This document shows, one piece after another, positions 870 to 30,331 of a DNA stretch of 64,000 nucleotides (the first letter of the stretch is position 1; each line of letters opens with the position of its first letter). A program made the translations under genes and the position numbers. This DNA is from Chloranthus sessilifolius (taxonomy: Eukaryota; Streptophyta; Magnoliopsida; Chloranthales; Chloranthaceae): NCBI GenBank assembly GCA_021018995.1, contig CM037598.1, forward strand, positions 72,496,671 through 72,560,670, given 5' to 3'. Under the pieces are notes generated by a model that was not told where the DNA came from, made no database searches, and saw only the letters and a program-made list of their open reading frames with translations.

Positions 870-2541
870 TGTGATAGCCCGACGTTTTCCCGTCTCTAAA
901 TTGGGTCAGGTCGTGCCATCGGATCACCTGATATGATCCTTTCATCAAGGTAGTATTTCTTTAATTAAAAGTAACGCAATTGTGGAAGCAATAAATTTTA
1001 ACTCTGACAGATATATATAACATGACAAAAACAACTGATAATTAGACTAGCAACACTATGTACAAAATAACGGTCAGATCTGATGTATAGCTTTTCACTG
1101 ATGACGGCCACCCGTCATCTAAACAGTGAAAAGAAAACCTATACATCCAAGTATATGTCTAAAAACCATTATATATCATTTATACATGCCATAAAATGTA
1201 TTTCTCTCATTCCTCTCCTTCTCAAACCCATATCCCCTCAGATCCCAAGTTACAAAACTATTTCGGGAAGAATTCTTCCGCGAAATCTTCCTCCTCCTCG
1301 TCGTCGTCTTCTTCTTCTCCCTCTTCCTCATCAGGCACGCAAGTAGGAACAGCTACGCGCTCCGGGTCAGGGTCTGCAGCTAAGACATGTAAGTTGAGGA
1401 ATGAGCTATCATCCAAAGCTTAGTAGAGAGTATTGCATTGTTATTTTATATTAACAGGTATCACTTTTTCATAGAGAAGCAGAAAATAAAATATGAATAA
1501 CATGCTGTAATGCTGTATTTATGCATGATATAACAAGTGTGAGAGGCAAACTGAAACTGAATACAAGCTGGCGAAAACAGGGAATTACAAGGTCAAGCTC
1601 TCGAGTTAGCGGGATCACTTGCATAGAGAATCTCAAGCTCCCGAGTTAGCGGGATCACTTGATTTAACTAGAGCAACAACGTATTAAGAACATTGAGATT
1701 GACAAAATTCTGAGTACTGAATTACGTAGAATCATCAAGGATATGCATTTGCATGTATGCTTTATGATGTAACGTACTTAAACTGCTATCAATATATCAT
1801 ATCATTAATTTATAAACAATAATTTATGTTCATAGTCATGCTCATAGTCTAGTAAAAGAATGCCTTTCTGATTTATGCAATGTGTACTTAGATGCTATTG
1901 ATGCTCATAGTAATATCAGTTTAATGGCTAATCAAGTCCATTTATTTCCTATCAAATCAAGCTTATCAGTTCAAATACAAAAAAAAAATCAGATTTTTCT
2001 TCAATTATGCTGATCAGTGCATACATGCATACTTATCAAGGCTTCTATAAAAATTAAGTGACATTCTTATATCATTCTAAAATATCAACACAGATTCCCT
2101 ACCTGTGTATGTTGAATCTTACACGTGTTGTCGTCGATGCACTTTTAGTCATCCAATAAAATCATGCGAATCCATCTCTTCAAAATTGTTTAAGTGCACC
2201 ATGTGGCACCATATCTAAGAAAATAGATTGATTTTTAATAACATTCGTAATTTATATATAGATGAGCCCGTAATTTATAGATGGATAATAGTGCACCAAG
2301 ACCCAATTAGACCCCTCTTGGATCCAAGGTCCGAATGCACAAACACAGCTCAAAATTCTGTGCTGGGGAAGGTTGCCTCGGCAACACTCAAGTGGTTGCC
2401 GCGGCAAGCCCTTCAGCTGGCTTTGTTGCCGTGGCAACCCTGTATATTTTTGGCTTGCCGGGCTTCAGCTGGGTTTCTTCTTTATGGTTTTGATCTGTTG
2501 TTCTTCCCTTTTGCTTATATATATATTTTCTATATATATAT

Positions 2542-2594
<53 letters not shown>

Positions 2595-3409
2595 TGTTAT
2601 CTTCAATGCAGAGCCAGAGTGCAAAGATCTGCTCTCAACTTGAGCTGCCATTCGTAACATAAAATTTTATGTACAAGAATAGAAGAACTAACAAATAACT
2701 AACCTTTTTGGTGATTAGTATATGATCACACGAAAGAATATCGATGCTATGTTTGCTGATCTCAACGACGGATCAAAACTGTGAGAAGTTGATTAATAAT
2801 TCAAACTATTTGTTGTCCTTCACAGAATTTGTTCTGGTCTGATTTATTAACAAAAACCTAAAGAATGAAAGGAAGCTTTGCCTTATAACAAATGACCTTG
2901 CCTGCATACTCACCCGCAAGGTGACTCATTGGAGTCGTGTTATGTTTTTTCCATGCAAGTAAGCAGCAAGTAGCTTACAAGCTACTTGAGTTAAGGTTGC
3001 CTGTAAAGTAACACTACTTTGGTAGTGTACTGCATACGAGACAAAACACCTAAAAATAAAACCAGAGTCTTCGTATATATCGAATTCAAACCAGGTTTTA
3101 TGTTGTGTGTTAAGCTAGTACACCTAGTCTCTTATAAAAGACAAGGTATACAATGACTTGTATGTAAGTCATGTTTACTTAAGTATTGTATAAGCATTGT
3201 ATAAGTTCTTTTTAAATTTATCCGGCATTATATTTATATAAATATCTATATGTATTCATTAAATTTCTATGATTCCAATTGATAATTGCTGCCAATTAGG
3301 CTTAGTCTTTATCCTAATGGCTAGGCTGAACTAACTTAGTAGCCATGGTCGTAGCCTTATGCCTGACCGGACCCTCATCCTTACTGTGTCAAATCTGGGG
3401 ATCGTTACA
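870..3409 (-). repeat. E1 3' LTR
   Basis: This 2.54-kb copy aligns along its whole length with 11351-13938. Differences are mainly in a (TA)n tract at 2518-2591 and scattered substitutions. It contains two copies of the CGAGTTAGCGGGATCACTTG motif near 1600-1663. A cluster of TTGCCGCGGCAA-like palindromes lies at about 2365-2440. Two small open frames at 1083-1423 are chance frames in the LTR. Confidence 0.92.
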
Positions 3410-3425
3410 TTCTCCCCTATTTTAG
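3410..3425 (-). promoter_or_regulatory. E1 polypurine tract
   Basis: Next to the inner edge of the 3' LTR the minus strand reads AAAATAGGGGAGAA. This is the purine-rich primer expected for plus-strand DNA synthesis in LTR retrotransposons. Confidence 0.85.
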
Positions 3426-3961: not shown

Positions 3962-5307
3962 TTAGAAGTTACCAGGCAGGGGGTTTGGTTGTTGTTGGCC
4001 TGCAGAGGAAGGTCCAACTTCTTGTTGTTGGAAGTCTTGCTGGAACTCTGGGACCAATAATACTGCGTTTCGAGTGTATTGGGAGATGTAATTGCGTGCC
4101 CACCCAATGTAAGGGTTTGCAGCAGTTTGGAATGTATGCTCCATCATGATATTAGTCGCTTCTTCAATATAATTGATACGTTGATGGAGCATGTAATGGT
4201 TTCGATATAAGTTATCGAATTGCAGGAGGGTTTGCTCATGGTTTTCACGCATGAGTTGGACAAGATCCGCATTTGTAAAAGTCCCTTGTGTCGAAGGGAT
4301 TCTGTTTTGGATTGTGGTTGAGGAGGAATGGAGGTATCTTGGGTTGGAACAGAAGGGATTTCTTGTTGGGCTTGTGGGGGACGACGAATTTGTTTAGCTT
4401 GGCGGTTACTTACCGCTTGAATGGAGCGCTGATACATATTTCTCTAAATGGCAGGGCTAAAGACCTGCATATTGTCAGTGCGGACCTCTTCACCCGCAGG
4501 GATTTGATAGGAAACTAAATTGGCACTATCGAAGTGTCCTTCTAGCATGCGAGAGATCAATTGGGGGTAGGGGCAGGAGGGCATGAGAGGTGAAGCATTG
4601 CTTTGTAAATGGTCATTGGCGTACTTAATGCCCTCCCAGACTACCATAGGGGCATTTATCCATCGGCCTTCATGGACGGCATAGAGAGCTTGTAAGAGAG
4701 CATCTCGGCGCTCTCTTTCATACTGCATGAGATATAGATTACATCGAAATACACAATCCAAAAACCACATTTTCTGTGGTAATTGGCTGCGACGAATTGC
4801 AAGGCTGCGATCGAAAGTGGTCTGTGCATCAGTCATCTTAGTGATGATATGATGGAATTTGACATCCTGCTGCCTGGGCATTTGTAGTCCTGTGGTCACG
4901 TCAAAATCAGGACTACAGTCTATAGCTTGAGCTATGTGTCGTATATTGAAGTAGAATTTTTTATCATCAATTTTGGTCTCTAATTGACCAACAGTTGGGG
5001 AGACTATCAAGTTTTGGTAGAACAACCAGACTAAACGAGGATAAAATTGATTATGAAATGGTTGATACAAGGTGCCTAACCGCGCCTGTTCCATGTATTG
5101 AATAGACCATGCGGTCTGGTCATTCGGGGTTAAAAGTCAATCATCAATGATCCACTCGGGTTCCATGGCTTTTGCAGCCCACCATGGGATGGGTTGTTCA
5201 TGCTCAATGGGTGGATTGATTGGTTCGTGGGAAGGAGCAGGGTCTTTGCCCTTAGCTTGAGCTGAGGCCTTTGAAGGTTTAGAGGCTCCAACCTTTTTAG
5301 GAGGCAT
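3962..5307 (-). pseudogene. Extra 3' ORF of chromovirus E1 (broken)
   Basis: After the pol gene and on the same strand, a region of about 448 codons starts at the ATG at 5307. The N-terminus is Lys/Ser/Pro-rich. Residues of about 60-290 form a conserved globular block (motifs PFHNQFYPRLV, MWFLDCVFRCNLY, WEGIKYANDHLQ, SRMLEGHFDS, GEEVRTDNM). A Pro/Gln linker follows, then a heptad-like helix (DLVQLMRENHEQTLLQFDNL) and a Gln-rich tail. The block recalls the plant-specific 'putative plant transposon protein' family (PF20167), which I judge by eye only. Stops at about 5136 and 4441 and a frameshift near 4270 break this copy. E2 carries the same ORF, so it belongs to the family. Its role is unknown; an env-like or accessory protein is possible. 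Confidence 0.8.
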
Positions 5308-6283: not shown

Positions 6284-9200
6284 TTATGTAAATAATCGAG
6301 GGTACTAAGCACGAATATCAGCTTCGCGCTCCCAGGTAGCTTCATGCGACTCATGATTCTTCCATTGAATCAAAACGAGTGGAATTCATTTTGTTCTCAG
6401 AATTTAATCTCTGCGGTCCAAAATCTGACTTGGTTCTTCAGTCACCATTAGATCTTCCTGGATGTCCAATGGTTGATAATCCAACACATGTGTTGGATCA
6501 CTGACGTACTTTCTCAGCATCGATATGTGAAATACATCATGAATGCCTGCCAGGGGCGGAGGTAACGCGAGTCAATACGCTACTTCTCCTACTCTGCCTA
6601 GTATAGGGAATGGCCCAACGTAACGAGGACTCAACTTGCCTCGTTTCCCAAACTGTATCACGCCTTTTTTCGGAGAGATTTTGATAAAGGCGTGTCCGCC
6701 AATCTGAAAATCATTTCATTAGACTGATAATGAACTTTTAGTCAAGTTATAGAAGACTTATTAATGTTAATTATTACCTGAAAATCAATACTGGTTCTTT
6801 TGAGATCAGCGTAACTCTTTTGTTGACTCTGAGCACTCTTTAATCATTCCCGAATAATGTGAATAACTGCATTGGTGATTTACATCGGCGTCCATACAAT
6901 GCTTCGAACGGTGCCATACCGATGCTTGACTGGAAACTGTTATTATATGCAAATTCGATCAGGGGTAAGTGTTTATCCCATGATCCTTGAAAATCGAGCA
7001 TACAGGCCCTTAACATATCCTCAATCACTTGGTTCACCCTTTCTGTCTGCCCGTCAGTCTGAGGATGAAATGTTGTACTAAAGTCTAACTTGGAACCCAT
7101 ACCTTCTTGAAAACTTTGCCAAAATCGCGAAGTATATAAAGGATCGCGATCTGACACGATGCTTACAGGTATCCCATGTAAACGTACAATCTCCCTCAAA
7201 TAAACTTCAGCTAATTTGGATGTTGTATATCGTGTACTATAGGATAAAAATGCGTCGATTTGGTGAGACGATCGACAATCACCCAAATTGCATTTTAACC
7301 CTTTTGAGTACGGGGCAAATCGAGAATGAAATCCATGGAAATATTTTCCCATTTCCATTCTGGAATAGGCAATGGCTGTAGCTGACCAGCATGATGTTTG
7401 TGCTCGACCTTGACTTGCTGACAGGTCAAACACTTTGCAACATATTCTGCTACATCACGTTTTAGACCGTTCCACCAGAACGTCTGTTTAAGATCTTGGT
7501 ATATCTTCGTACTACAACATATGCTAACTTGTGAGCTTCTTCGAGGATTTTATGACGTAAAGCATAATCATCAGGTACACATACTCGTCCTCAAAATAAT
7601 AACGACCCATCGTCCTTTATCGTGAATTCTGGCTGTAGCCCACTTTGTACCCCCTGTCGGATGAAATAAGCTCTGCATCTAACATCTGGTGCTTTCTGAT
7701 CCTATCAAATAGTGGAGCTCGGATCATTACTATAGTAAGTAAACCTCCAGTTGACGTTGCTCGCAGAGTAGCATTCGATGATACAATGTCATTGAGTAGT
7801 TTCCATCTTTGTAGTCATGTTACAAGATGAGATAACTGAGCGGAGGATTTGCGGCTAAGCGCATCAGCTACAACATTGGCTTTACCGGGATGGTACTGAA
7901 TAGAATAGTCGTAGTCTTTCAAAAATTCCATCCACCTTCTCTGTCTTAAATTTAACTCTTTCTGAGTGAAGAGGTATTTAAGACTCTTGTGATCGGTGAA
8001 GATCTCGAAGGTTTCACCGTACAGATAGTGTCTCCAAATTTTCAATGTGAAAATAACTGCTGCTAGTTCTAGGTCATGAGTGGGATAATTCTTCTCATAG
8101 TCTTTCAGCTGACGAGAACCATATGCAATTACCGTTCCCATTGGTTCAATACACACCCTAGCCCACTGTATGAGGCATCACTGAAGACGACAAAACCACC
8201 ACTACCAGATGGTAATGCTAGAACAGGTGCGAAAGTAAGTCTCCTTTTCAATTCTTGGAAACCTTGTTCGCATGCCTCGGTCCACTCGAATTTAACATTC
8301 TTTCAAGTGAGCTGCGTGAGTGGTCCAGCAAGTCGTGAAAAAACCTTCAATGAAGCGTCGATAATAACCTGTAAGACCTAGAAAACTTATGATCTCGGTT
8401 ACTGTCTGTGGCTGCTTCCACTGTACTACCGCTTCAATCTTTGCAGGATCAACCATGATACCTGCTTCAGAGATAATATGCCCTAGAAAACTGACTTGAT
8501 TCAACCAGAGGTCACATTTACTGAATTTAGCATATAACTACAAATCTCTCAGTGTTTGTAATGCTAGACGTAGATGATCTTCATGCTCTATGTTTGTCTT
8601 GGAATATATGAGTATATCGTCGATGAATACTACGATACACTGATCAAGGTAAGGTTTGAAGACTCTATTCATCAAGTCCATAAAAGCAGCTGGTGCATTG
8701 GTCAACCCAAAGGGCATGACAAGAAACTCGTAATGACCATAGCGTGTTCGAAAAGCTGTCTTCGAAATATCTTCAGCTTTCACCTTCATCTGGTGATAAC
8801 CCAATCGTAGGTCAATTTTTGAAAAGAATCGCGCTCCTTGTAACTGATCAAAGAGATCGTCGATTTGAGAAAGCTGATATCTATTCTTGATCGTCAGTTT
8901 ATTGAGTTGACGATAATCAGTGCAGAGACGCATTGAACCATCCTTCTTTTTCACAAATAACACCGGAGCGCCCCATGGAGACACACTCGGTTTGATAAAG
9001 CCTTTGTCAAGAAGCTCTTGTAATTGCTCCTTAAGCTCTTTCAACCCTGCCGGTGCCATTCTGTATGGTGCTTTCGATACTGGATCGGTACCTGGAGCTA
9101 ATTCAATAGCAAAATCTACTTCCCTATCAGGCGGTAGTCCTGGCAGCTCATTAGGGAACACATATGAAAATTCATAAACGATTGGTACTTCGGAAAGTGA

Positions 9201-9709
9201 CATTTTATTCACTTTCTGTTCATCACTTTGTATGAAAGCAATAAACCCTTGAGCACCTTCATCAAGTAATTGTCGTACTTGAATTGCGGATATCAGCGAA
9301 ACATTAGTTGACGATACGCTATAAAATTTAGATGATCTCTTCTTCTGGGGACGAAAAGAGACAATCTTCTTGCGACAGTCAACGTTCGCATGGTGAGTGA
9401 ACAACCAATCCATGCCAAGGATCACATCGTATCCTTGCATCAGTAACAAGATCAAATCAGCTACTGCTTCATATCCCCAGTAATCCTTGATTGAAATCAT
9501 AATCGATCGGTATACTTTATCAGTCGTGAGGGATTGTCCAGTTGGAAGGGTAACATCCAGAATAAAGTCAAGAGGTTCTGGAGTACCTCCTATCTTCTTT
9601 AATTTTTCAGCAAACTAGGGTGTGACAAATGAGTGTGTAGATGCGGGATCTATCAAGACTCGTGCGTTATAATACAGATAAGCATCTTTTGGATATAATT
9701 GTAAGATAC
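6284..9709 (-). pseudogene. E1 pol: protease, RT, RNase H, integrase, chromodomain (broken)
   Basis: Minus-strand order: protease near 9640, where the active site reads DPAS instead of DPGS and is followed by a stop in place of a codon. RT (best open frame 8538-9500) has the active-site motif [12 protein letters not shown] near 8630. RNase H lies at about 8504-7815 ([19 protein letters not shown]). The integrase core at 7433-6840 has [12 protein letters not shown] and HPQTDGQTERVNQ. A C-terminal chromodomain ends at the TAA at 6284-6286 (IQWKNHESHEATWE). The chromodomain is thought to guide integration to chromatin marks. E2 retains a segment of about 50 bases near 23225-23275 that E1 lacks. 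Several stops and frameshifts make it a pseudogene. Confidence 0.9.
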
Positions 9710-9885
9710 CTAAAGCATATAAACTAATGTTAGTTATATTACCTATTTATCTCAAATATTTAAAATAATAAATATGTCAATCTAGGAATTTAGGATATAA
9801 TGTTCATAGTTAACTATATGCACCTTCTCTATCTAAAATGATAATTAATTGTAAACTTTAATGTAAAATTAATGGACAGCCATAC
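9710..9885 (-). other. Intron between E1 gag and pol
   Basis: On the minus strand the donor is TTCAAG|GTATGG and the acceptor ATGCTTTAG|GTATC. A CTAAC branch-like motif lies about 20-25 bases before the AG. The 176-bp interval is strongly A/T-rich, as plant introns are. The phases fit: CAA-G joins GT-ATC to read Gln-Gly-Ile. If not removed, Gag ends at the TAA at 9869-9871. E2 has the same structure at 26028-26195. Confidence 0.8.
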
Positions 9886-11211
9886 CTTGAATGATGTCAT
9901 GGCTAGTCCTCGCATCTGTTGCAGTGACAGCATAAGTTCGGCCTTATACTGTAGGCCGTGCCAATCGTAACACTGGTCCTGCCTTTGTCGCTATTCTGAC
10001 CATTTCTGGACATTCTCGGATCCGATGTCCCATTTTTCCACATCCAAAACACGCACCAGAAGCTTTACGACACTCATCGGTCTTGTGTGCCTTCCAACAT
10101 TTCCCGCAAATTTCTTTGGAGGCAACTGATGACGCTGTATAAGATCCCATGCGAGAACCTATCGGCCGTACTTAAGAAAACCCAGATGTACTTTGAGCCG
10201 CTGGTGAATAAGACTGATTCAGTACACATGGAATCCTTGATGGTGTTGAGAATACCGATGGATTGTAAGGCTGTGCATATGCTCCCACAGCCGGTTGAAT
10301 TGCTGTCTGTCCTTGAAATCGTGGTCGCTTATTAATTTGACCGCACTATAGGATTGTGGAGCTTTTCTGGCCTTCTGCTTTTCGTCTCTCCTTTTGAATA
10401 TGGTATCCACATCGGTTTCCGCAATCAATGCCAATTTCATCACGTGGGCATAGGTCGTTGCCTGAAATAATGAAATGCGCTCTTTGATCAGAGGTTTCAA
10501 ACCCCTCTCAAACTTTTGGGTTTTCATCAACTCGGTGGCTACTAACAGCGGTGCAAAGCAAGAAAGACGAGTAAATTCTGATTCATATTCTCTAACTGTC
10601 ATCTGCCCTTGTACCAATGTTGCAAACTGTACCTCGAGCTTATACCTTTCAGGCGCTGGAAAATATTTTTCATTAAAGGCCTCAGTGAATTCTGCCCATG
10701 TCCATGGTACTCCAGGCATCCGTGTTCTTTCGACAGACTGCCACCATGGCTCTGCCTCACTCTCTAGTTTGTACGCTGCCCAGCTCACTTTTTCTTCCTC
10801 AGTACAAGTGACTCGTTGTAGTACTTTCTCAATCTGCGTTAACCACTTCTCAGCCTCCATTGGGTCATGCTGACCATAGAAACTTGGTGGTCGAAGTCGA
10901 ATAAAGTCTGAAAAGCCCTCGGGACGTCGAACATCAAGCATGGCCATAGTGTTGACCATAGTCTCCATCAACTGCGAAGGGTGTCCCGCATTTTGTTCCA
11001 TACCATGAACACTTCCCATCGGTGGAGTATGTATCACTGGCGGAGGATGCTCTGCAACATTCTCCATTGTCGTTCGACTTTCAGCCAGATGGGCATTCTC
11101 ACCACTCCCTGAAGCAATGTCATGCTCGTACCCAGCTACTGGAATAGTATTCGGTCCAGTGCGATGAGGCAACGGTGGTCTACCCCTGCCTCTTCCACGG
11201 CGCGGAGGCAT
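9869..11211 (-). pseudogene. E1 gag with two zinc knuckles (frameshifted)
   Basis: The ATG at 11211 opens an uninterrupted frame of 330 codons. It has an Arg/Gly-rich N-terminus (MPPRRGRGRGRPPLPHR), then the Gag core (FYGQHDPMEAEKWLTQIEK, WAEFTEAFNEKYFPAPERY, YESEFTRLS). The rest continues in another frame at 10150-9944 with two knuckles, CX2CX3HX4C and CX2CX4HX4C. The unspliced frame ends at 9869-9871 just inside the intron. The core assembles the virus-like particle; knuckles bind RNA. One frameshift near 10150-10220 and one stop near 9944 disable this copy. Confidence 0.88.
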
Positions 11212-11337
11212 CTTAACCTAATCATATAAAAACTTGATCAGATATACAACTCAATCTAACTCCTACCTCTATTCTATTAACAGATATTTTACCATATTTG
11301 TATATGTCAGAGTTTAGTCTCCAATGACCGAACGCCG

Positions 11338-11350
11338 ACTCGATATACCA
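11338..11350 (-). promoter_or_regulatory. Degenerate primer-binding site of E1
   Basis: The minus strand reads TGGTATATCGAGTC next to the 5' LTR. E2 has TGGTATCAGAGC at the equivalent place, the tRNA-iMet primer site. E1's site and the neighbouring 8-10 bases of LTR edge have mutated. Confidence 0.7.
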
Positions 11351-13055
11351 CGGAATGACGACGTTTCCCCGTCTCTAAACTGGGAAAGGTCGCGCCATCG
11401 GATCACCTGATATGATCCTTTCATCAAGGTGTTATTTCTTTAATTAAAAGTAACACAATTGCGGAAGCAATAAATTTTAACTCTTACAGATATATATAAC
11501 ATGGCAAAAACAACTGATAATTAGTCTAGCAGCACTAAGTACAAAATAACGGTCAAATCTGATGTATAGCTTTTCACTGATGACGGCCACCCGTCATCTA
11601 AACAATGAAAAGAAAACCTATACATCCAAGTATATGTCTAAAAACCATCATATATCATTTATACATGCCATAAAATGTATTTCTCTCATTCCTCTCCTTC
11701 TCAAACCCATATCCCCTCAGATCCCAAGCTATAAACCTATTTCTGGAAGAATTCTTCCGCGAAATCGTCCTCCTCCTTGTCGTCGTCTTCTTCTTCTCCC
11801 TCTTCCTCGTCAGGCATGTAAGTAGGATCGCCACGTTCGTCGTGGTCGAGTGCTAAGACATTTAAGTTGAGGAATGAGCTATCATCCAAAGCTCAGTAGA
11901 GAGTATTGCATTGTTATTTTATATTGACAGGTATCACTTTTTCATAGAGAAGCAGAAAATAACATATGAATAATATGCTATAATGCTGTATTTATGCATG
12001 ATATAACAAGTGTGAGAGGCAAACTGAAACTGAATACATGCTGGCGAAAACAGGGAATAACAAGGTCAAGCTCCCGAGTTAGCGGGATCACTTGCATCGA
12101 GAATCTCAAGCTCCCGAGTTAGCGGGATCACTTGATTTAACTAGAGTAATAACGTATTAAGAACATTGAGATTGATAAAATTCTGAGTACTGAATTACGT
12201 AGAATCATCAAGGATATGCATTTGCATGTATGCTTTATGATGTAACGTACTTAAACTGCTATCAATATATCCTATCATTAATTTATAAACACTAATTTAT
12301 GTTCATAGTCATGCTCATAGCCTAGTAAAAGAATGCCTATCTGATTTATGCAATGTGTACTTAGATGCTATTGATGCTCATAGAAATATCAGTTTAATGG
12401 CTAATCAAGTCCATTTATTTCCTATCAAATCAAGCTTACCAGTTCAAATACAAAAAAAAAATCAGATTTTTCTTCTATTATGCTGATCAGTGCATACATG
12501 CATACTTATCAAGGCTTTTATGAAAATTAAGTGACATTCTTATATCATTCTAAAATATCATCACAGATTCCCTACCTGTGTATGTTGAATCTTACACGTG
12601 TTGTCGTCAATGCACTTTTAGTCATCTGATAACATCATGCGAATCCATCTCTTCAAAATTGTTTAAGTGCACCATGTGGCACCATATATAAGAAAATAGA
12701 TTGATTTTTAATAACATTTGTAATTTATAGATGAGCCCGTAATTTATAGATGGTTAATAGTGCACCAAGACCTAATTAGATAAACATATGAACCCCTCTT
12801 CGATCCAAGGTCCGAATGCACAAACACAGCTCAAAATTCTGTGCTGGGGAAGGTTGCCTCGGCAACACTCAAGTGGTTGCCGCGGCAAGCCCTTCAGTTG
12901 GCTTTGTTGCCGCGGCAACCCTGTATATTTTTGGCTTGTCGGGCTTCAGCTGGGTTTCTTCTTTATGGTTTTGATCTGTTGTTCTTCCCTTTTGCTTATA
13001 TATATTTTCTATATATATATATATATACATATACTTGTCTATTTCTGTATATATA

Positions 13056-13112
<57 letters not shown>

Positions 13113-13938
13113 CACTGTTATCTTCAATGCAGATCCAGAGTGCAAAGATCTGCTCTCAACTTGAGCTGCCATTCGTAACATAAAATCTTCTGTACAAGAA
13201 TACAAGAACTAACAAATAACTAACCTTTTTGGTGATTAGTATATGATCACACGAAAGAATATCGATGCTATGTTTGCTGATCTCAACGACGGATCTCAAC
13301 GACCGATCAGAACTATGAGAAGTTGATTAATAATTCAAACTATTTGTTGTCCTTCACATAATTTGTTCTTGTCTGATTTATTAACAAAAACCTAAAGAAT
13401 GAAAGGAAGCTTTACCTTATAACAGATGACCTTGCGTGCATGCTCTCCCGCAAGGTGACTCATTGGAGTCGTGTTCTATTTTTTCCATGCAAGTAAGCAG
13501 CAAGTAGCTTACAAGCTGCTTGAGTTAAGGTTGCCTGTAAAGTAACACTACTTTGGTAGTGTACTGCATAAGAGACAAAACACCTAAAAATAAAACTAGA
13601 GTCTTCTTATATATCGAATTCAAACCAGGTTTTATGTTGTGTGTTAAGCTAGTACACCTAGTCTCCTATAAAAGACAAGGTATACAATGACTTGTATGTA
13701 AGTCATGTTTACTTAAGTATTGTATAAGCATTGTATAAGTTCTTTTTAAATTTATCCGACATTATATTTATATAAATATCTATATGTATTCATTAAATTT
13801 CTATGATTCCAATTGATAATTGCTGCCAATTAGGCTTAGTCTTTATCCTAATGGCTAGGCTGGACTTAGTAGCCATGTCATAGCCTTATGCCTGACCGGA
13901 CCCTCATCCTTACTGTGTCAAATCTAGGGATCGTTACA
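11351..13938 (-). repeat. E1 5' LTR
   Basis: This copy matches 870-3409. It contains (TA)n and (CT)n microsatellites at about 13005-13112 and the TTGCCGCGGCAA-like palindrome cluster at 12850-12925. The terminal bases next to the primer site differ from the other LTR. The outer edge, ending TTACA at 13938, is intact and followed by the TCCTT duplication. Confidence 0.92.
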
Positions 13939-13943
13939 TCCTT

Positions 13944-15060
13944 CTTCAGATTATGGTCGTCAATCATAATCTTCAGCTATCGGATGTTTACAAATTTAAA
14001 ATACTGTTACACTATATCTCAGTCTTCTAGAATTTAGGCGTCAATCAAAAACTAGCATCCTTCAACATAGATCTATACGAATCTTCAATCTACTAGAAAT
14101 TTGGGTGTCAATCAAACTCCAAAAAATTAAAGATGGAAAAGTAAAACCATTACACTAATCTGTAAATCTCAACCTGAGTCATCACTTCAAATTAAAACTT
14201 GGAGATATTTATAAAGCAGTAAATTACAAAATAAATCTAAACTAGAAAACAATAAAAATATATCTTTCACCCCTCAGCCACAGGCGTCAATTGCTTCTGA
14301 GAAACTATGGGTAGCTACACTAATCTTCCAGCTCTCAATCCTAATCGTCAATTGTGATTGAGGAACCTTTGATATTTAATCTAAACTAAACTAAGTTGAT
14401 CGGAAGAAAACCCAGCATCAATCGTCAATTGATATTGAGAATTCCTTCGATAAGAATTCCTATATCGGGCTCTCTTATTTATAGATCATAAGGGGTTGGT
14501 TTACAGTGTTCTAATTCTAATAAAAGAAAATACTAAAAACAAAAGATTCCTAATATAACTCTAATTCCTTATTTTATCTTCCTTGCTTTGAATAGTTGAT
14601 GCGCTTTGGAATTTATTTCCTTAATTCTAGCAAAAGAGATTTTTAGGAGTTTATCTTCATCAATCTTCTCAGATTCGTGATTCACCAGACTTCTACTTTA
14701 AGAGATCTTCTATATTGGTTCATGGCGGTGTAGATTGCTTCACATGCTCAGCAGTGTAGAAGCTTCAATTTATACAATCGTAAACTAGGATTTTCGATTT
14801 TTACACAGCTTCCTTTAGAACGATTTTTTATTTACGATTTTATTTACGATCGATCATTTTTCTCTTTCATATCACCTTTTTCCTTTTGAACGTCTTTTGA
14901 AGAATCGTAAATTACGATTTCTGCTTCTTTGTTCTTTCAGCAACAACGCTCAATCGTCTTTTACGATTTTCCAACTTTAAAGCATATAGTGAATTGTCTT
15001 TTACACTCTATGGTCTTTCTTACTGCTTTTTTATCCCACTTTAACTAATATTAACACTTT
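13944..15060 (-). repeat. Upstream piece of the old Ty3 LTR, with TATA box
   Basis: Sequence resumes directly after the E1 duplication. A minus-strand TATA box (TATAAATA at 14476-14483, followed by AGAGAGCCCGATA) marks the likely promoter. The outer LTR edge could not be placed; 15060 is a guess based on a change in composition. No coding sequence was seen. Confidence 0.45.
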
Positions 15061-19979: not shown

Positions 19980-20398
19980 TGTATTAATGAACATGGTTTT
20001 ATTTCTCTTACATGTGGCACCTGATGAGGAGTATTTCAAAATTAACATGGATTCTCAACTATAAAAAAATAGACCATTCTCATACAACAGATAGAATTTC
20101 ATTTACAATTGAGATATACCAAATTGAACTACTCCTTATCATTATTTTAGACAAAATGTAAATGAGAACAAGAGAATTGCACTTTAAGATTTACATACAC
20201 ACCATAGAGGACTACAATATTAGGAATAAAGTGTTCAATTGAAACAAAACATGTAGTACCTCAAACATTAGAACTACCACAATCATTAAACATCGATTAT
20301 ATAATAGCTAATTTGTCATATATAGGCATGCTTTATTTGATATTAATTCAAGTAATTATAAAAATAAAATGTAGTACATAAACTATGATCTTGTGAAT

Positions 20399-21716
20399 TT
20401 ATATTTTACCAGGCTGAGGATCTGTTTGCTGTTGGCCCGCTGAGGATGTACCAGCTTCTTGTTGTTGTTGTTGGAAGTCTTGCTGGAACTCCGGGACCAA
20501 TAATGCTGCGTTTCGAGTGTATTGGGAGACGTAGTTGCACGCCCGCCCAATGTAAAGGTTTGCAGCAGTTTGGAAAGTATGCTCTATCATGATATTAGTC
20601 GCTTCTTCAACATAATCGATATATTGATGGAGTATCTAATGGTTTCGATATAAGTTATCGAATTGCAGGAGGGTTTGCTCATGGTTTTCACGCATGAGCT
20701 GAACAAGGTCGGCGGTGGTGTAGGTCCCTTGAGCCAGAGGGACCGAATCAGGTTGAGGTTGGGGTTGTGGTTGAGGAGGGACGGGGATTTCTTGGGGTAT
20801 TTCTTGTTGGACTTGGAGAGGACGACGAATTTGTTTCGCTTGGCAGTTACGTACTACTTGAGATAAACGTTGATACACGTTACGCCAAATGGCAGGGCTA
20901 AAGACCCGCATGTTATCGGTGCGGACCTCTTCGCCAACAGGAATTTGATAGGGGACGAGATTGACACTATCAAAGTGTCCTTCCAACATACGAGAGATCA
21001 ATCTAGGGTAGGGGTAGGAAGGCATGGAAGGTGACACCTGGCTTTGTAGGTGCTCATTGGCATACTTGATGCTTTCCCAAACCACCCTAGGACCACTTAT
21101 CCATCGTTCTTCATGGACGGCAAAAAGAGCTTGCAAGAGAGCATCTCGGTGCTCTCTTTCATGCTGCATGGGGTACAAATTATATCTAAATATATAATCT
21201 AAAAACCACATCCGTTGTGGTAACTGGCTGCAACGTACGGCAAGACTATGGTCAGAAGCGGTCTGACCATTAGTCATCTTCGAGGTGATGTGGTGAAATT
21301 TCACATCCCTCTACTGAGGTATTTGTAGTCCAGAAGTGACGTCATAGTCAGCACTACAGTCCATCGCTTGGCCTATGTGCAGGATATTGAAATAAAATTT
21401 ACGACCATCAATTTCCGTCTGTATAAAACAAACGGACTAAACGAGGGTAAAATTGGTTATGGAATGGCTGATACAAGGCGCTTAACTGTGCCTGTTCTAT
21501 GTAGCGAATGGACCATGCGGTCTGGTCATTCAGGGTCAAAAGTTTATCATCTACGATCCATTCCGGTTCCATTGCTTTCGCAGCCCACCACGGGATGGGC
21601 TGTTCAGGTTCTTCTGGTGGATCGATTGGCTCACGTAAGGAAGAAGAAGGGTCTTTGCCCTTTTCTTGAGCCGAGGACTTTGGGGGTTTAGACGCTCCCA
21701 TTTTTCTAAGAGGCAT
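20399..21716 (-). pseudogene. Extra 3' ORF of chromovirus E2 (broken)
   Basis: This is the counterpart of the E1 extra ORF. The ATG is at 21716; an in-frame upstream ATG at 21776 is unlikely because it lies before the AG-pyrimidine tract. A long open block at 20636-21304 holds motifs shared with E1 (QLPQRMWFLDYIF, SRMLEGHFDS, GEEVRTDNM, MRENHEQTLLQFDNL). The linker is longer in Pro/Gln pairs than in E1, and the tail is Gln-rich. It has a small deletion near 21420, a stop near 21310 and one TAG at about 20637. Retention of the same architecture in two diverged copies indicates a real, formerly selected gene. Function unknown. Confidence 0.8.
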
Positions 21717-22613
21717 TGTGCAATCTAAAAGACAAGAAAAACAAGAGGAGTGAGTTATGATTGTTTTACCTCTCAAAGCTTCAAAAATCAGTCTGAAATG
21801 AGAGGAAAATCAGCCAATAGAGTGATTCTTTGAGTAGATCATGAACATGCAACGGCTGTGGATTGGATTGGGAGGTGTACATGTACATATACGAGTGTAG
21901 GAGGTTGAAGAAAACAACAATATGCACTTTCTATAACAGAAAACCGAACTGGAAATAGACTAGAATGGGTTTCGGACCCACCATATGCCAACAGAGTTGC
22001 TGCGGCAACACTTTAAGCTTGCCGCGGTAAGTGACTTGTCGCGGCAACACTTAGTCCTTGCCGCGGCAAGGGAGTCCAAATGGGAGTTGGCCCGGATTTC
22101 GGGGCTCCAGAGATGTGGTGTTAAATATTTTTGTACCTGTGTGTTCTTAACAGATAAGGGGTTTATAGAAAAATATTGATTAGTAATTTTGATGTATTTT
22201 TCTATGTTAAAATATTTTATTTCAATGGAATTTGATCCATTTTTGCAATATAGTTTAAAAATTGTTATAAAATATTATATAAATTATTATATTAGCCCAC
22301 TAAGGGCTCTTGGATTAGTTACCTGGGACAAGTGGCAATAGGCTGGGATACATTGATGCTTAGGTGTTACTGTTTGGAAATTTTGAAATTATTTATTATT
22401 CCATTTATCTTGAATATTTAATGTTATATTTTTATACGGATATTATATTTTAATACTAACTACCATCATGTTATGGAAAGGTAATTCGATCAAGGTTCAG
22501 CATGTTCTTGTCTATAGGTGCAGAGTGTATTTACAATAATATTTAAAATCTAAGCAAGTACAATTTAATTGACCAAATGTAACTATAGTGTACATGAATA
22601 TAAAGTACATACC
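21717..22613 (-). other. E2 spacer between pol and the extra ORF
   Basis: There is no gene. TTGCCGCGGCAA-like palindromes lie at about 21998-22072. A pyrimidine tract ending CTTTTAG sits eight bases before the extra ORF's ATG. Confidence 0.5.
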
Positions 22614-25600
22614 TTATGTAAATAATCGGGGGTACTGAGCATGAATATCAGATTCGTGCTCCCAAGTAGCTTCATGCGATCCATGATTCTTCCATTGAAT
22701 CAAAACGAGTGGAATCCGTTTTGTTCTCAGAATTTGATCTCGGCAGTCCAAAATCTGACCGGGTTCTTTGGTTATCGTTAGATCTTCTTAGATATCCAAT
22801 GGTTGAAAATCCAACACATGCGCCAGGTCATTGACGTATTTTCTCAGCATCGATACGTGAAATACGTCATGAATGCTTGCTAGGTGCGGAGGTAACGCGA
22901 GTCGATACGCTACTTCTCCTACTCTGCCCAATATAGGGAATGGTCCAACATAACGAGGACTTAGCTTGCCTCGTTTCCCGAATCGCATCACGCCTTTTGT
23001 CAGAGAAATTTTGATAATGACGTGCTCGCCAATCTGTATATGATTTCATCAGACTGAAAGACCATATAAGTCTAATGACTTCACAAAGAACGTATCAGTG
23101 TAGTATATTACCTGAAAATCAACACTTGTTCGTTTGAGATCAGCGTAACTCTTTTATCGACTCTGAGCACTCTTCAATCGTTCCTGAATAACGTGAACAA
23201 CTGCATTGGTGCTTTCTATCAGGTCAGGGCCTAAAATTAACCGTTCTCCAGCTTTTTCCCAGTTAATCGGAGATTTACAACGGCGTCCATACAGTGCCTC
23301 GAATGGTGCCATACCGATGCTTGATTGGAAACTGTTATTGTATGCGAATTCGATCAGGAGTAAGTGTTTATCCCATGATCCTTAAAAATTGAGCATACAG
23401 GCCCTTAACATGTCTTCAATCACTTGATTAATCCTCTCTGTCTACTCGTCGGTCTAAGGGTGAAATGTTATACTGAAATCTAACTTGGAACCCATACCTT
23501 CTTGGAAACTTTGTCAAAATCGAGAAGTATACAAAGGATCACGATCCGACACGATGCTTACGGGTATTCCATGTAGTCGTACAATCTCTCTCAGATAGAT
23601 TTCGGCTAGTTTTGATGTTGTATATCGCGTACTATAAGGTAAGAAATGCACCGATTTGGTGAGACGATCAACAATCACCCAAATGGCGTTGTAACCCTTC
23701 TGAGTACAGGGCAAACCAAGAATGAAATCCATGGAAATATTTTCCCATTTCCATCATAATCTGCTACGTCACGTTTCAAATCGTTCCGCCAAAATGTTTG
23801 TTTAAGATCCTGGTACATCTTGGTGCTACCAGGGTGAATAACAGATGCTGACTTGTGAGCTTCTTCGAGGATTTCTTGATGTAAAGCATGATCATGGGGC
23901 ACATACTCGTCCTCGAAATAATAAAGACCCATCATCTTTGATTAAGAATTCTGACTGTAGCCCACTTTGTACCCCTTGTCGGATGGAAATAAGCTCTGCA
24001 TCTTGCATCTGGAGCTCTCTAATCTTATCGAAAAGTGGAGCTCGGATCATCACTGTAGCAAGTAAACCTCTAGTTGACGTTGCTCACAGAGTAGCACTCG
24101 ATGATACAATGTCATTGAGTAGTTTCCATCTTTGTAATCGTGTCACAAGATGAGATAACTGAGCGGAGGATTTACGGCTAAGTGCATCAGCTATAACATT
24201 GGCCTTACCAGGATGGTACTGAATCGAACAGTCGTAGTCTTTCAAATATTCCATCCACCTTCTCTGTCTCAAATTTAACTCTTTCTAAGTGAAGAGATAT
24301 TTAAGACTCCTGTGATCGGTGAAGATCTCGAAGGTTTCACCGTACAGATAGTGTCTCCAGATTTTCAATGTGAAAATAACTGCTGCTAGTTCTAGGTCAT
24401 GAGTGGGATAATTCTTCTCATGGTCTTTCAACTGACGAGAACCATATGCAATTACCCGTTCCCATTGGTTCAATAAACACCCTCGCCCACTATATGAGGC
24501 ATCACTGAAGACGACAAAACCACCACTATCGGATGGTAATGCTAAAACAGGTGCGGAAGTAAGTCTCCTTTTCAATTCTTGGAAACCTTGTTCGCATGCC
24601 TCGGTCCACTCGAATTTAACATTCTTTCGAGTAAGCTGCATGAGTGGTCCAGCAAGTCGTGAAAAACCTTCAACGAAGTGTCGATAATAACCTGCAAGAC
24701 CTAGAAAACTTCTGATCTCGGTTACTGTCTGTGGCTGCTTCCACTGTACTGCAGCTTCAATCTTTGTGGGATCAACCGTGATACCTATTTCAGAGATAAT
24801 ATGCCCTAGAAAATTGACTTGATTCAACCAGAAGTCGCATTTACTGAATTTAGCATATAACTACGAATCTCTCACCGTTTGTAATGTCAGACGTAGATGA
24901 TCTTCATGCTCTGTCTTTGTCTTAAAATAAATAAGTATATCGTTAATGAATACCACGATACACAAATCACGATAAGGTTTAAAGACTCTATTCATCAAGT
25001 CCATAAAAGCAGCTGGTGCATTGGTCAACTCGAAGGGCATGACAAGAAACTCGTAATGACCATAGCGTGTTTAGAAATCTGTCTTCGAAATATCTTCAGC
25101 TTTCACCTTCATCTGGTGATAACCCGATCGTAGGTCAAATTTTGAAAAGAACCGCACTCCTTGTAATTGATCAAAGAGATCGTCGATTCGAGGAAACGGA
25201 TATCTATTCTTGATCATCAGTTTATTGAGTTGGTGATAATCAATGCAGAGATGCATTGAACCGTCCTTTTTCACGAATAACACCGGTGCGCCCCACGGAG
25301 ACACTCGGTCTGATGAAGCCTTTATCAAGAAGTTCTTGCAATTGCTCCTTGAGTTCTTTCAATTATGTCGGTGCCATTCTATATGGTGCTTTTGATACTG
25401 GGTTGGTACCTGGAGCTAACTCAATTGTGAATTCAACTTCTCTGTCAGGTGGTAGTCCTAGCAGCTCATCAGGAAACACGTCAGGATATTCACAAGCAAT
25501 AGGTACATTTGAAAGTGAAATTTTCTTCTTTTTCTGCTCATCACTTTGTATTAAAGCAATATACCCTTGAGCACCATCATCAAGCAATTGTTGTGCTTGA

Positions 25601-26027
25601 ATTGCAGATATCAATGAAAGATTCGTTGACGGTACGCCATAAAATTTAGCTGATATCTTCTTTTGTGGGCGAAAGGAGACAATCTTCTTGCGACAATCCA
25701 CGTTCGCATGGTGAGTGAACAACCAATCCATGCCAAGGATCACATCGTATCCTTGCATCGGTAACAAGATCAAATCAGCTACTGCTTCATATCCCCAATA
25801 ATCCTTGATGGAAATGATAATCGACCGGTATACTTTGTCAGTCATGATAAATTGTCCAATCGGAAGGGTAACATCGAGAATAAAGTCGAGAGGTTCTAGA
25901 GTACCTCCTATCTTCTTTAATTTTTTAGCAAACTGGGGTGTAACAAACGAGTGTGTAGATCCGGGGTCTATCAAAACTCGTGCGTCGTAACACAAATAAG
26001 CATCTTTTGGGTATAATTGTAAGATAC
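22614..26027 (-). pseudogene. E2 pol: protease to chromodomain (broken)
   Basis: Minus-strand order: protease with intact LIDPGSTHSFV near 25960. RT at about 25570-24880 has stops and frameshifts. RNase H is largely open at 24827-24285. The tether and HHCC-type integrase zinc region lie near 23935-23770 (EEAHKSASVIHPGSTKMY). The integrase core lies at about 23732-23100 ([11 protein letters not shown]). The linker at 22991-22788 has [12 protein letters not shown] well-preserved chromodomain ends at the TAA at 22614-22616 (IQWKNHGSHEATWE). A deletion joins the zinc region directly to the start of the core. The chromodomain type supports the Tekay/Del-like chromovirus assignment. Confidence 0.9.
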
Positions 26028-26195
26028 CTAAAGTATACAAACTAGTGTTAGCTAAATTACTTATAAGTGTCAAATAATAGTATGTTACTGGAGGAATTTA
26101 GAATGTAATATTCCTAATTTACAATATGCACCTTCTCTATCGAAAATGATCATTTATTGTAATTTGTTAATATAAAAATTAATTGACAACCATAC
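26028..26195 (-). other. Intron between E2 gag and pol
   Basis: This 168-bp A/T-rich interval has the donor ATTCAAG|GTATGG, a CTAAC motif and the acceptor TACTTTAG|GTATC. All are conserved with E1, while the middle has diverged. Removal joins Ile-Ile-Gln to Gly-Ile-Leu-Gln and on into the protease. Retention ends Gag at the TAA at 26179-26181. Confidence 0.8.
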
Positions 26196-27521
26196 CTTGA
26201 ATGATGTCGTGGCTAGTTTTCGCATCTTTTGCAGTAGCAGCAGAAGCTCGGCCTTGTACCGTAGGCCGCGCCGATCGTAATACTAGTCCTGCCTTGTTGT
26301 CATTCCGACTGTTTTCGAGCATTCTCTGATCCGATGTCCCATCTTGCCACATCGAAAACATACACCAGAAGCCTTACGACACTCATCGATCTTGTGTGCC
26401 TTCCCACATTTCCCACAAATTTCTTTGGAGGCAACTGATGAAGCCGCATAAGATCTCTTGCGAGATCCTATCGGTCGTGCTTGAGAAAACCCAGATGTAC
26501 TTCGAGCCGCTGAAAAAGATGGATTCTGAACACGTGGAATCCTTGGTGGTGCGGAGAACATTGATGGATTATAAGGCCGTGCAAATGCGCCTGCAGCTGG
26601 TTGAAAAGCGGTTTGTCCTTGGAATCATGGTCGTTTATTAATTTGACCCGCACTATAGGACTGTGGTGGAGCTTTTCTGGCCTTCTGCTTTTCGTCTCTC
26701 CTTTTGAACATGGTGTCCACATCAATTTCTGCTATCAATGCCAATTTCATCACGTGGGCATAAGTCGTCGCCTGAAACAACGAAATGCGCTCTTTGATCA
26801 GAGATTTCAAACCCCTTTCAAACTTTTGAGTTTTCATCAGCGCGATGGCCACTAGCAACGGTGCAAAGCGAGAAAGACGAGTAAATTCTTATTCATATTC
26901 TCTAACTGTCATCTGTCCTTGTACCAAGGTTGCAAACTGTACCTCAAGCTTATACCTCTCAGGCGCTGGAAAATATTTTTCATTAAAGGCCTCAGTGAAT
27001 TCTGCCCATGTCCATGGTACACCATGCATCCGTGTTCTTTCAACAGACTGCCACCATGGCTCTGCCTCACTTTCCAGTTTGTACGCCGCCCAACTTACTT
27101 TCTCTTCTTCAGTACAAGTGACTCGTTGCAGTACTTTCTCAATCTGCGTTAACCACTTCTTAGCCTCCATTGGGTTAAGCTGACCATAGAAACTTGGTGG
27201 TCGAAGTCGAATAAAGTCCGTAAAACCCTCGGGACGTCGAACAGCAAGCATGGCCATGGTGTTTACCATGCTATCCATCAACTGCGGATGGTGTCCCGCA
27301 TTTTGTTCCACACCATGAACACTTCCCATCGGTGGAGTATTTATAACTGGCGGAGTATGTTCTGTAACATTCTCCATCGTCGTTCGACTTTCAGCCAGAT
27401 GGACATTCTCACCACTTCCAGAAACAACGTCATGCTCGTATCCGTCTACCGGAATAGCATTTGGCCCAGTACGATGAGGTAACGGTGGTTTACCTCTACC
27501 TCTTCCACAACACGGAGGCAT
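26179..27521 (-). pseudogene. E2 gag with zinc knuckles (broken)
   Basis: The ATG at 27521 opens 210 codons matching E1 Gag (FYGQLNPMEAKKWLTQIEK, WAEFTEAFNEKYFPAPERY). The frame stops at about 26886, where E1 has a Ser codon. The rest continues as 26858-26625 and 26561-26283, the latter with both knuckles (CGKCGKAHKIDEC and CFRCGKMGHRIREC). The role is particle assembly and RNA binding. Several frameshifts disable this copy. Confidence 0.87.
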
Positions 27522-27650
27522 CGTAACCTATTTCAGATAAAAAGTTAATCAGACCTACAACTCAATCTAACTCCAATCTCTATTCTATTAACAGATATTT
27601 AACCATATTTGTATATGTCAGAGTTCAGTCTCCAATGACTTAACGCCGGG

Positions 27651-27662
27651 TGCTCTGATACC
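27651..27662 (-). promoter_or_regulatory. E2 primer-binding site for initiator tRNA-Met
   Basis: The minus strand reads TGGTATCAGAGC, the exact 12-base complement of plant initiator tRNA-Met 3' end used by many plant retrotransposons. It lies two bases inside the LTR edge at 27665. Confidence 0.92.
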
Positions 27663-27664
27663 AC

Positions 27665-30331
27665 CTGTGACAGCCCAACGTTTCCCAGTCTCTCAACTAG
27701 GAAAAGTCGCGCCATCGGATCACCTTATATGATCCTTTCATCAAGAGGTTCCTTTTTTTATTTCAAAGTATCGCAGAATGCGGAAGCAATGTATTTAAAC
27801 TCTAACAAATAACTCATATGGCAAATAACTAATTAAATAGAAACTAAAATACGTGATAAACATAAAGCAAAAGGTTTGATGTATAGCTTTTCACCGATGA
27901 CGGCCACCCGTCATCTAAACAGTGAAAAGAAACCTATACATCCAAACATCATCCCACAGAAATCTGAAACCAACATATATCATTATACAAACCATAAATT
28001 ATCTTTTCCCTTTTTCTCTCTCTCTCTCTCTCCCCATTTTTTCCCCATATCCCAAGCTACAAACCTAACTACGGGAAGAACTCCTCTGGGAAGTCGTCTT
28101 CCCCGTCGTCTTCATCTTCCTCTCCCTCCTCCTCAGGCACGTATGTAGGGTCTGCCGCTTGCTCAGGGTCAGGCTCTGCAGCTAAGACATTTAAGTCGAG
28201 GACTGAGCTATCATCCAAAGCTCAGTAAAGAATATTGCATTGTATTCTATATTGACAGTTTATCACCTTTTCATAGAGGCGCATAAAATAACATATGAAT
28301 AACATGATGAAATGATGTATTTATGCATGATATAACAAGTGAGAGAAGCAAACTGAACTAAAAATACATACTAGCGAAAACAAGGAATTAACAAGGTCAA
28401 GCTCCCGAGTTAGCGGGATCACTTGTCAAGCTCCCTAGTTAGCGGAATCACTTGATGTAACAAGAGTAATAACGTATCAAGAACGTATCAAGATCATTGA
28501 GATGGATAAAATTTTGAGTACTGAATCACATAGAATTATCAGGGATATGCAATTTCTTGGATGGTTTTATGATGCAATGTATACTCACCTGTTATAAATG
28601 TAATAATAGCATTAATTGTCAAAACTGATTTATGCGCATAAACTAGTAAGAGCATGTCTTTTCCGATTTTGGCAGTGTATACTAGATGTTGTTGATACTC
28701 ATTCATGCATTGTTTCTCATTAGATTAATGGCTAATCACATCTATTTATGACATAATAAATCAAGTGCATCAGTTCAATTAACAAAGCAAATTCTACTTC
28801 TAATATACTGATCATTGCGTACATATATACTCATCAATGCTTCTATGAACAACTCAGTGAAAACGCTTATTCAATTATAAAATATCAACGTAAATTCCCT
28901 ACCTGTATACGTTAAGTCTTACAAGTATTGTCACTGACGCACATTCACGCATCCGAGAACATCATGCATTCTTTGTTCTTCAAAATTTTCTAAGTGCTCC
29001 ATGTGGCACCAAATCTAAGAAAAATAGATTTATTTATTTTAAAAACCAACACGAGTATGTTATAGATGAGCCATTGGTTTATAGCTGGCCAATAGTGTAT
29101 CAAGACCCAATCAGGTACTTATCTGAATCCATGTGAACCTAAGGTCCGAATGCACAAGAGGCACAGCCCATAGTTCAAAACCCAAGGCTGGAGGGGTTTG
29201 CCACGGAAACCCTTTGAGGTTGCCGCAGCAAGCTTGGCTTGCCGGGCTTCAGCTGAGCTTCCTCCTTGTTCTTGTCCCCTGTTGTACTCTCCCCCCCCCC
29301 CTTTTTGCTTATATATATTTTATTATATACATTTAGATGTATGTATATATTTATATATACATATATAATTTTAGCAGATTTTCTATAGATTTTCAATATA
29401 TATTTCGATAGCTTTTAAAACTCCGAATTTGCACTTTGCACTCTATAAAGTCCACAGATCTACCATGCAGATTCGAAGTGCAGTAATCTGCACTCAGCTT
29501 TGAGTATACATGTTGAATTCTGAGCTCCAGTTCAACGTAGTCGTTATGATGACCCTTTATTTTAAATGAAATCGATAGCATACCTTTTGGTGAATTTGTA
29601 GTATCCAACAATTGATGTTGTGTTTGCCGAATTAGAGAATGATGAGGTCGTTTCCTGCGAAATGCTACTATGGATCTTGAAATTGTGGGATCATGAGATG
29701 TACTCTGATCTTAACTTATATCCAAATTTGTCAAAGCTAGGCTAGGATTAATATATGGTGACCATAGTGTCCTTGGATTCATAGACCATATATGCAGGTT
29801 TTCCTTTCAAGGATAGGCAAAAGGAGGAAGATGATGGTCTGGTTGATGGTTCTTATAAAGATTTACTGCACTTTGCGTGCATGTAAACATAACATGACTC
29901 ATTGGAGTCGTGTACTCGATAAGCCATGCAAGTAGCTTATTAGCTACTTAAGGTAAAACATCATATATATCCAGTATACCTAGGTAATGGTGTTTCATAT
30001 AAAACAAAACAGGTATATTTTACAAATGAGACAATTGAGAAACCGACAAAAATTTATACACTAGCCTTTCCTCCCATGGTTATATTAATACTAGTTATAG
30101 TTAAAGCCTAATGGCTTCGGCTTTAGTATAAGGTGTATATACCATTTCGGGTATATAGGAAATTGTTAAAGTAGTTCAATATTTTATTTGAATATGGCTT
30201 TGTCTAGCTTAAAGTCAAATTTCTAAGATTTAAGGTCTAACCTAGTAAGGTCTTTAGGGTTCAGGTGGAAACTTACACATGACCTGACCGGACTCTTACC
30301 ACTGCAGTGTAAAAATCTGGGGATCGTTACA
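27665..30331 (-). repeat. E2 5' LTR
   Basis: It begins TGTGACAGCCC and ends GATCGTTACA on the plus strand, the same ends as the E1 LTRs. It is 2667 bp and shares blocks such as GAGTTAGCGGGATCACTTG (near 28400) and a partly decayed palindrome cluster near 29195-29240. The flank TTCTT (30332-30336) is a possible target-duplication half with no partner. Confidence 0.9.

Follow-up and report, generated by a model that had tools for sequence, protein, structure and literature searches.

The stretch of DNA analysed here, called the window, comprises 64,000 nucleotides (nt) of Chloranthus sessilifolius (positions 72496671-72560670 of contig CM037598.1) and was taken from a 2.17-Gb assembly of 32 contigs. 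It carries two related long terminal repeat (LTR) retrotransposons, E1 and E2, both on the reverse strand. The domain order gag-protease-reverse transcriptase (RT)-RNase H-integrase, as found with Pfam, is that of Ty3/gypsy elements, and a 57-amino-acid piece downstream of the integrase in E2 matches the chromodomain PF00385 (27.0 bits, cut-off 25.1), a chromovirus feature. E1 has a stretch resembling the E2 chromodomain with stops within it. In E1 the gag region with capsid and CCHC zinc knuckle (9886..11217) and the scored pol region with protease, RT, RNase H and integrase (6843..9709), both with broken frames, are separated by an interval of 176 nt. We describe evidence that this interval is probably a gained intron, and that host RNA splicing probably decides how much shell-protein and how much enzyme product is made in this retrotransposon family.

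The predicted E1 intron (9710..9885, reverse strand, with GT at 9885 and AG ending at 9710) lies between the end of the nucleocapsid and the protease. It is in phase 1 and reads GTATGG...CTAAC...CTTTAG, with the exon flanks ...TCATTCAAG and GTATCTTAC. The branch-point-like motif CTAAC is found at 9729..9733, with a distance of 20 nt between its branch A and the acceptor G, and the A+T content of the interval is 77.8%. In unspliced RNA the Gag frame would be closed by a TAA at 9869..9871, five codons past the codon that spans the donor. An earlier note, made from the letters of the window, had reported these ends, the CTAAC motif, the high A/T content and the TAA; its coordinates were exact. 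In E2, a homologous interval of 168 nt (26028..26195, reverse strand) has the donor, CTAAC, CTTTAG and a Gag-frame stop as in E1. The two intervals are identical at 135 of 166 ungapped positions, with length differences of 1, 1 and 10 nt, and with lengths of 176 and 168 nt the relation between the gag and pol frames differs between the two elements. Both are rich in T compared with their flanking exons (41% vs 25% in E1, 39% vs 24% in E2).

When the E1 exons are joined they read ...SHDIIQ^GILQLYPKDAY... (^ marks the junction), in frame with the protease. A search within 60 nt on either side found three frame-restoring GT..AG pairs common to E1 and E2, all with the donor described above and with acceptors at 0, +24 and +51. 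The protease profile RVP_2 matches the joined exons with 92.1 bits over profile positions 3-130, compared with 80.8 bits over positions 32-130 without the upstream exon and 79.9 bits with the intron translated. Among the 120 protein relatives listed, out of 1466, identity is 51% or lower and 90 align unbroken through the junction, that is, from at least 6 residues before it (it follows query residue 25) to past residue 60; some of these relatives are translations of gene models, whose introns may have been taken out beforehand.

The genome was searched for the predicted 26-nt exon-exon junction, allowing up to 3 mismatches. This gave 15 places, 3 of them exact, while the reversed control gave none. 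All 15 intron-less relatives (L031-L045) are stop-free across the join, and many have stops further off. The nearest six (L031-L035 and L039) read ...IIQGIL(Q/K)LYPKDAY..., and the others are variants of this. On the pol side, identity to E1 ranges from as much as 90% (nearest copy) to less than 70% (farthest copy). The pre-intron sequence is CAAG^GTATC, and no base of it is missing where the intron stands. The acceptor at +24, although compatible with the frame in both E1 and E2, is ruled out by the intron-less relatives, which join exactly at acceptor 0; among the shared acceptors only 0 agrees with them. At the sequence level the interval thus has the features of a U2-type intron, namely GT-AG ends, a branch-point-like motif, a U-rich body and exact rejoining of the exons. 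The homologue in E2, the shared-donor pairs that include acceptor 0, the 15 junctions against none in the control and the extension of the RVP_2 match together place the interval beyond chance. The intron-less relatives are few and decayed, with 15 junction places compared with 474 intron-bearing donor junctions.

The same interval was followed through 60 copies, consisting of E1, E2, 29 loci found with E1 as query and 29 found with E2, with 40 loci scored per query. A homologous interval of 153-177 nt is present in all of them; the copies were selected by similarity to intron-bearing queries, and 60/60 is therefore no unbiased frequency. No copy is free of Gag-frame stops inside the interval, and the TAA codon described above is the first such stop in 40 of the 60. 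The interval length falls into all residue classes modulo 3 (30/16/14). Not all copies retain both splice ends: 56 of the 60 have GT as well as AG, and each site of the CTAAC motif deviates in 0 to 2 copies. Conservation within the intron body is highest in a block of 18 nt (9816..9833, reverse strand), which has a mean minor-allele frequency of 0.7%, compared with 10.2% for the whole intron, and windows of 18 nt as low as this occurred in 45 of 5000 site shuffles. We regard it as a candidate cis element. The block includes AAGGTGCAT, which resembles a cryptic donor. Three copies found with the E2 query (L057, L061 and L071) have a 166-nt E2-like intron, while their gag groups with E1 types, as does the pol of L061 and L071; they are apparent recombinants between the E1 and E2 subfamilies.

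Trees were built from exon sequences only. In the FastTree trees of gag (70 rows, 59 with and 11 without the intron) and pol (69 rows, 58 with and 11 without) the intron-bearing copies group together and the placed intron-less copies fall outside. Matches that were too short removed L068 from the gag tree, and for this reason the pol tree lacks L004 and L050. Among the intron-less places, L038 and L042-L044 are missing from the gag tree and L033, L037, L042 and L044 from the larger pol tree; with only L042 and L044 missing from both, 13 of 15 are placed on at least one. IQ-TREE analysis of gag (32 rows, 21 with and 11 without) and pol (30 rows, 21 with and 9 without) gave one change of intron state per tree, and the support for the intron-bearing clade was 100/100 in gag and a modest 75/64 in pol. 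None of the 13 intron-less copies that could be placed (of 15) represents a nested precise loss of the intron. Loss through spliced RNA was accordingly rejected as a general explanation of the intron-less copies, as the placed ones lie outside the intron-bearing clade in both trees. The number of state changes cannot separate gain from loss; the direction is taken as gain because relatives elsewhere are without the interval and because the intron-less copies form a grade. A single gain of the intron would be the simplest history, a point that was absent from the earlier note. That note had named family members with an open frame through the interval as evidence against an intron. Such members do exist (15), but the 13 that could be placed lie outside the intron-bearing clade and represent the pre-intron state.

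Selection on the coding regions was measured between E1 and E2 as the ratio of nonsynonymous to synonymous divergence (Ka/Ks), leaving out codons with a stop (1 upstream and 9 downstream of the intron) or a gap. The ratio is 0.222 upstream of the intron (bootstrap 0.156-0.301; 418 codons) and 0.182 downstream (0.139-0.253; 781 codons). Pol was thus still being made, and such purifying selection on a pol behind an obligatory stop would not be expected if the stop stayed in all of the RNA. Together with the exact junction of the empty site, this selection strongly supports the claim of the earlier note that splicing would fuse Gag in frame to the protease.

Resting on the exact presence or absence of the intron, the single change of state in the trees, the stops in all copies examined and the selection on pol, all read directly from sequence, we consider it probable that the family gained a spliceosomal intron and that its partial splicing by the host sets the Gag:Gag-Pol ratio. 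A chromodomain-bearing Ty3/gypsy lineage, whose relatives have a continuous gag-pol frame, would have gained a phase-1 intron once, at CAAG^GTATC. Unspliced RNA would then be translated up to the intron stop and give Gag, and would double as genomic RNA, and Gag-Pol would come from RNA that the host has spliced. Partial splicing would in this way replace the single-frame layout of the relatives and set the ratio of the two products. What we infer here is that the host does splice the RNA, but only in part, that the genome is carried by the unspliced form and that the ratio of the products is under control. The proposal that splicing efficiency sets the ratio, also made in the earlier note, is a reasonable one. 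The 474 donor-side junctions together with the lack of any nested intron-less copy among those placed suggest that reverse transcription normally works on RNA that has not been spliced.

How the intron arrived is a more tentative matter. The direct repeat AGGTAT of 6 nt at both ends of the interval fits either a target-site duplication or a capture at an AG|GT site. The intron may have been captured by reverse splicing into the RNA of the element itself, or a small insertion may have brought it in and doubled AGGTAT; the host spliceosome would then have become the control of Gag:Gag-Pol and that lineage would have become abundant. Spliced RNA would not enter reverse transcription, perhaps owing to a cis signal within the intron, for which the 18-nt block is one candidate, and copying would leave the intron in place. 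This full sequence of events is possible, and we would sooner doubt than accept it. Within the window the interval body had no similar copy beyond E1 and E2 at an E-value below 1e-3, and inspection by eye revealed no terminal inverted repeats of the interval.

Three other explanations have to be weighed. The interval could be a real intron without being a switch, i.e. a tolerated insertion with near-constitutive splicing, the excess of Gag being obtained through protein turnover or separate RNA pools. Presence of the intron, junction and pol selection are accounted for equally well in this way, no measured feature is specific to partial splicing, and distinct RNA pools are described for BARE (PMC3735527). 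However, the absence of nested loss (13 of 15 placed) beside about 474 donor junctions points to an unspliced pool, and this pool could yield Gag. We hold this explanation to be unlikely, though the most serious of the three. It is far less likely that there is no intron, and that a DNA insertion split gag from pol in copies that then spread using the Pol of intron-less relatives. E1 and E2 are each broken and the 6-nt AGGTAT terminal repeat is what a target-site duplication would give, but the strong purifying selection on downstream pol (Ka/Ks 0.18) was obtained between two intron-bearing elements, the boundaries coincide with an exact GT-AG intron, and the potential Pol donors are few and decayed. 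Their pol frame is open for at least 600 nt from the junction in 0 of 11 intron-less copies, compared with 22 of 58 intron-bearing ones, in a choice of copies that was biased.

Least credible of all, in our judgement, is a supply of Pol from unspliced RNA by readthrough, frameshifting or internal initiation. Readthrough is a common solution elsewhere for the expression of Pol. So is frameshifting (PMC3735527). In the present family the variable length modulo 3 and the stops in every copy examined would make a fixed frameshift or a single readthrough hardly workable. As to internal initiation, the pol frame most often has its first Met at codons 60-89 after the acceptor, while the active-site motif of the protease is at codon 19 (in E2); the tally names 53 of 58 copies, of which 2 have a Met before that range, at codons 11 and 17, and 3 have no Met in 200 codons. 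With the first Met mostly past the active-site motif, reinitiation would usually give no intact protease.

Several observations count against a regulated intron. The earlier note had suggested comparing the splice sites with the intron body across copies. The expected difference was found, with a mean minor-allele frequency of 1.9% at GT, AG and CTAAC compared with 10.6% elsewhere in the intron and 5.6% in the exons (40 nt on each side, 60 copies), but resampling gives it marginal significance (P about 0.05 with all nine sites, about 0.19 with GT and AG alone). In a first set of 31 copies the variability of the intron, 3.2%, does not exceed that of the exons (4.7% and 3.6%), and the exons have a weak codon-position bias. 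Both are as expected if the variation there is mostly decay after insertion. Between E1 and E2 the intron does diverge less (0.215) than synonymous sites (about 0.31), but the exons are richer in GC, and decay of their methylated CpG could be the reason. An RT segment of 80 codons has a Ka/Ks of 0.93 at a Ks of 0.079. The acceptor is TAG, which is in general weaker than CAG. To these are added the selection of the 60 copies by similarity, the modest support of the pol clade, the recombination of subfamilies near the intron, and the genome-wide count of 474, which refers to donor-side junctions with the acceptor not confirmed place by place.

Several known systems are comparable. The intron of Ogre elements, which are found in legumes and belong to the Tat lineage outside the chromoviruses, also separates two parts of the polyprotein, following the same logic (PMC6317226). 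That intron lies between PROT and RT (PMC6317226), whereas the intron of the E1 family lies before the protease and in a chromodomain lineage. The presence of a chromodomain and the position upstream of the protease catalytic motif set E1 apart from the Ogre type, and the E1 family differs further in the intron length of 153-177 nt in 60 copies and in the empty site surviving in relatives. Bianca, a Ty1/copia element, has two open reading frames (ORFs) with a gap averaging 172 bp, which is similar in length to the E1-family interval (PMC6317226). It belongs to the copia superfamily, and in the part of the source available no evidence of splicing is given for it (PMC6317226). Splicing shifts the output of Gag versus Pol in the Ty1/copia elements BARE1 and EVADE (PMC3735527, PMC12786077). 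The logic there is opposite, as spliced RNA is Gag-only and unspliced RNA gives Gag-Pol, while in the E1 family the unspliced RNA would be Gag-only. In chromoviruses of Beta vulgaris (four clades) the domain order and chromodomain are alike, but gag-pol is one continuous ORF without an intron (PMC3605345).

If the proposed mechanism is true, a chromodomain lineage joins the small group of plant LTR elements that are believed to balance Gag and Pol by splicing. It would not be the first chromovirus with spliced RNA, since splicing has been reported for CRR, a rice centromeric element that we take to be a chromovirus. The spliced CRR transcripts are said to have lost rt and to contain two ORFs created by the splicing (PMC3735527), which is different from an intron that joins gag and pol. 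A literature search found neither an intron between gag and protease in a chromovirus nor a gain of a retrotransposon intron with an empty site; subscription papers were mostly outside its scope, and it is no proof of absence. Mechanisms of intron gain were described as still elusive and controversial in a 2012 review (PMC3443670). A gained intron with its empty site in the same genome is useful for this question. Furthermore, the gain sits in an element that is copied from RNA, where copying should delete introns, and yet no nested precise loss was seen in the 13 intron-less copies on the trees and about 474 donor junctions remain. Two questions thereby become testable, namely how introns are gained and how a retrotransposon excludes spliced RNA from replication.

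The remaining features of the two elements are as follows, all on the reverse strand. The 5' LTR of E1 is at 11303..13944 (ends approximate) and the matched part of its 3' LTR at 880..3413; the pair is 93.0% identical over 2599 columns with 103 mismatches and 11 gap openings. E1 is a damaged copy, with a stop in the end of gag, a stop early in the protease and gag spread over two frames, and E2 is likewise interrupted by stops and frame changes. The integrase core match in the broken copy is weak (17.6 bits, cut-off 32.6), while that of the integrase zinc-binding domain is clear (43.4 bits). The matched part of E2 (20379..29367) is 73-88% identical to E1 across the matched blocks. Its 5' side matches the E1 LTR at 73%, and no partner 3' LTR of E2 was found inside the window. 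With LTRs of about 2.6 kb and a chromodomain, the label Tekay/Del used in the earlier note is only plausible for the E1 lineage. A search of viral contigs gave no close relatives of the element, and the gag protein search gave one match.

A sense ORF lies downstream of pol in both elements (E1 4447-5136, E2 20639-21310). A protein search with the E1 ORF gave no relatives; this ORF has a weak match to PF20167 (31 bits, cut-off 45), and the E2 ORF has none. Between E1 and E2 the ORF is under purifying selection with a Ka/Ks of 0.166 (216 codons). Its Ks of 0.78, compared with 0.31 in gag-pol, suggests that the 3' part of E1 and E2 has a different history and was perhaps recombined.
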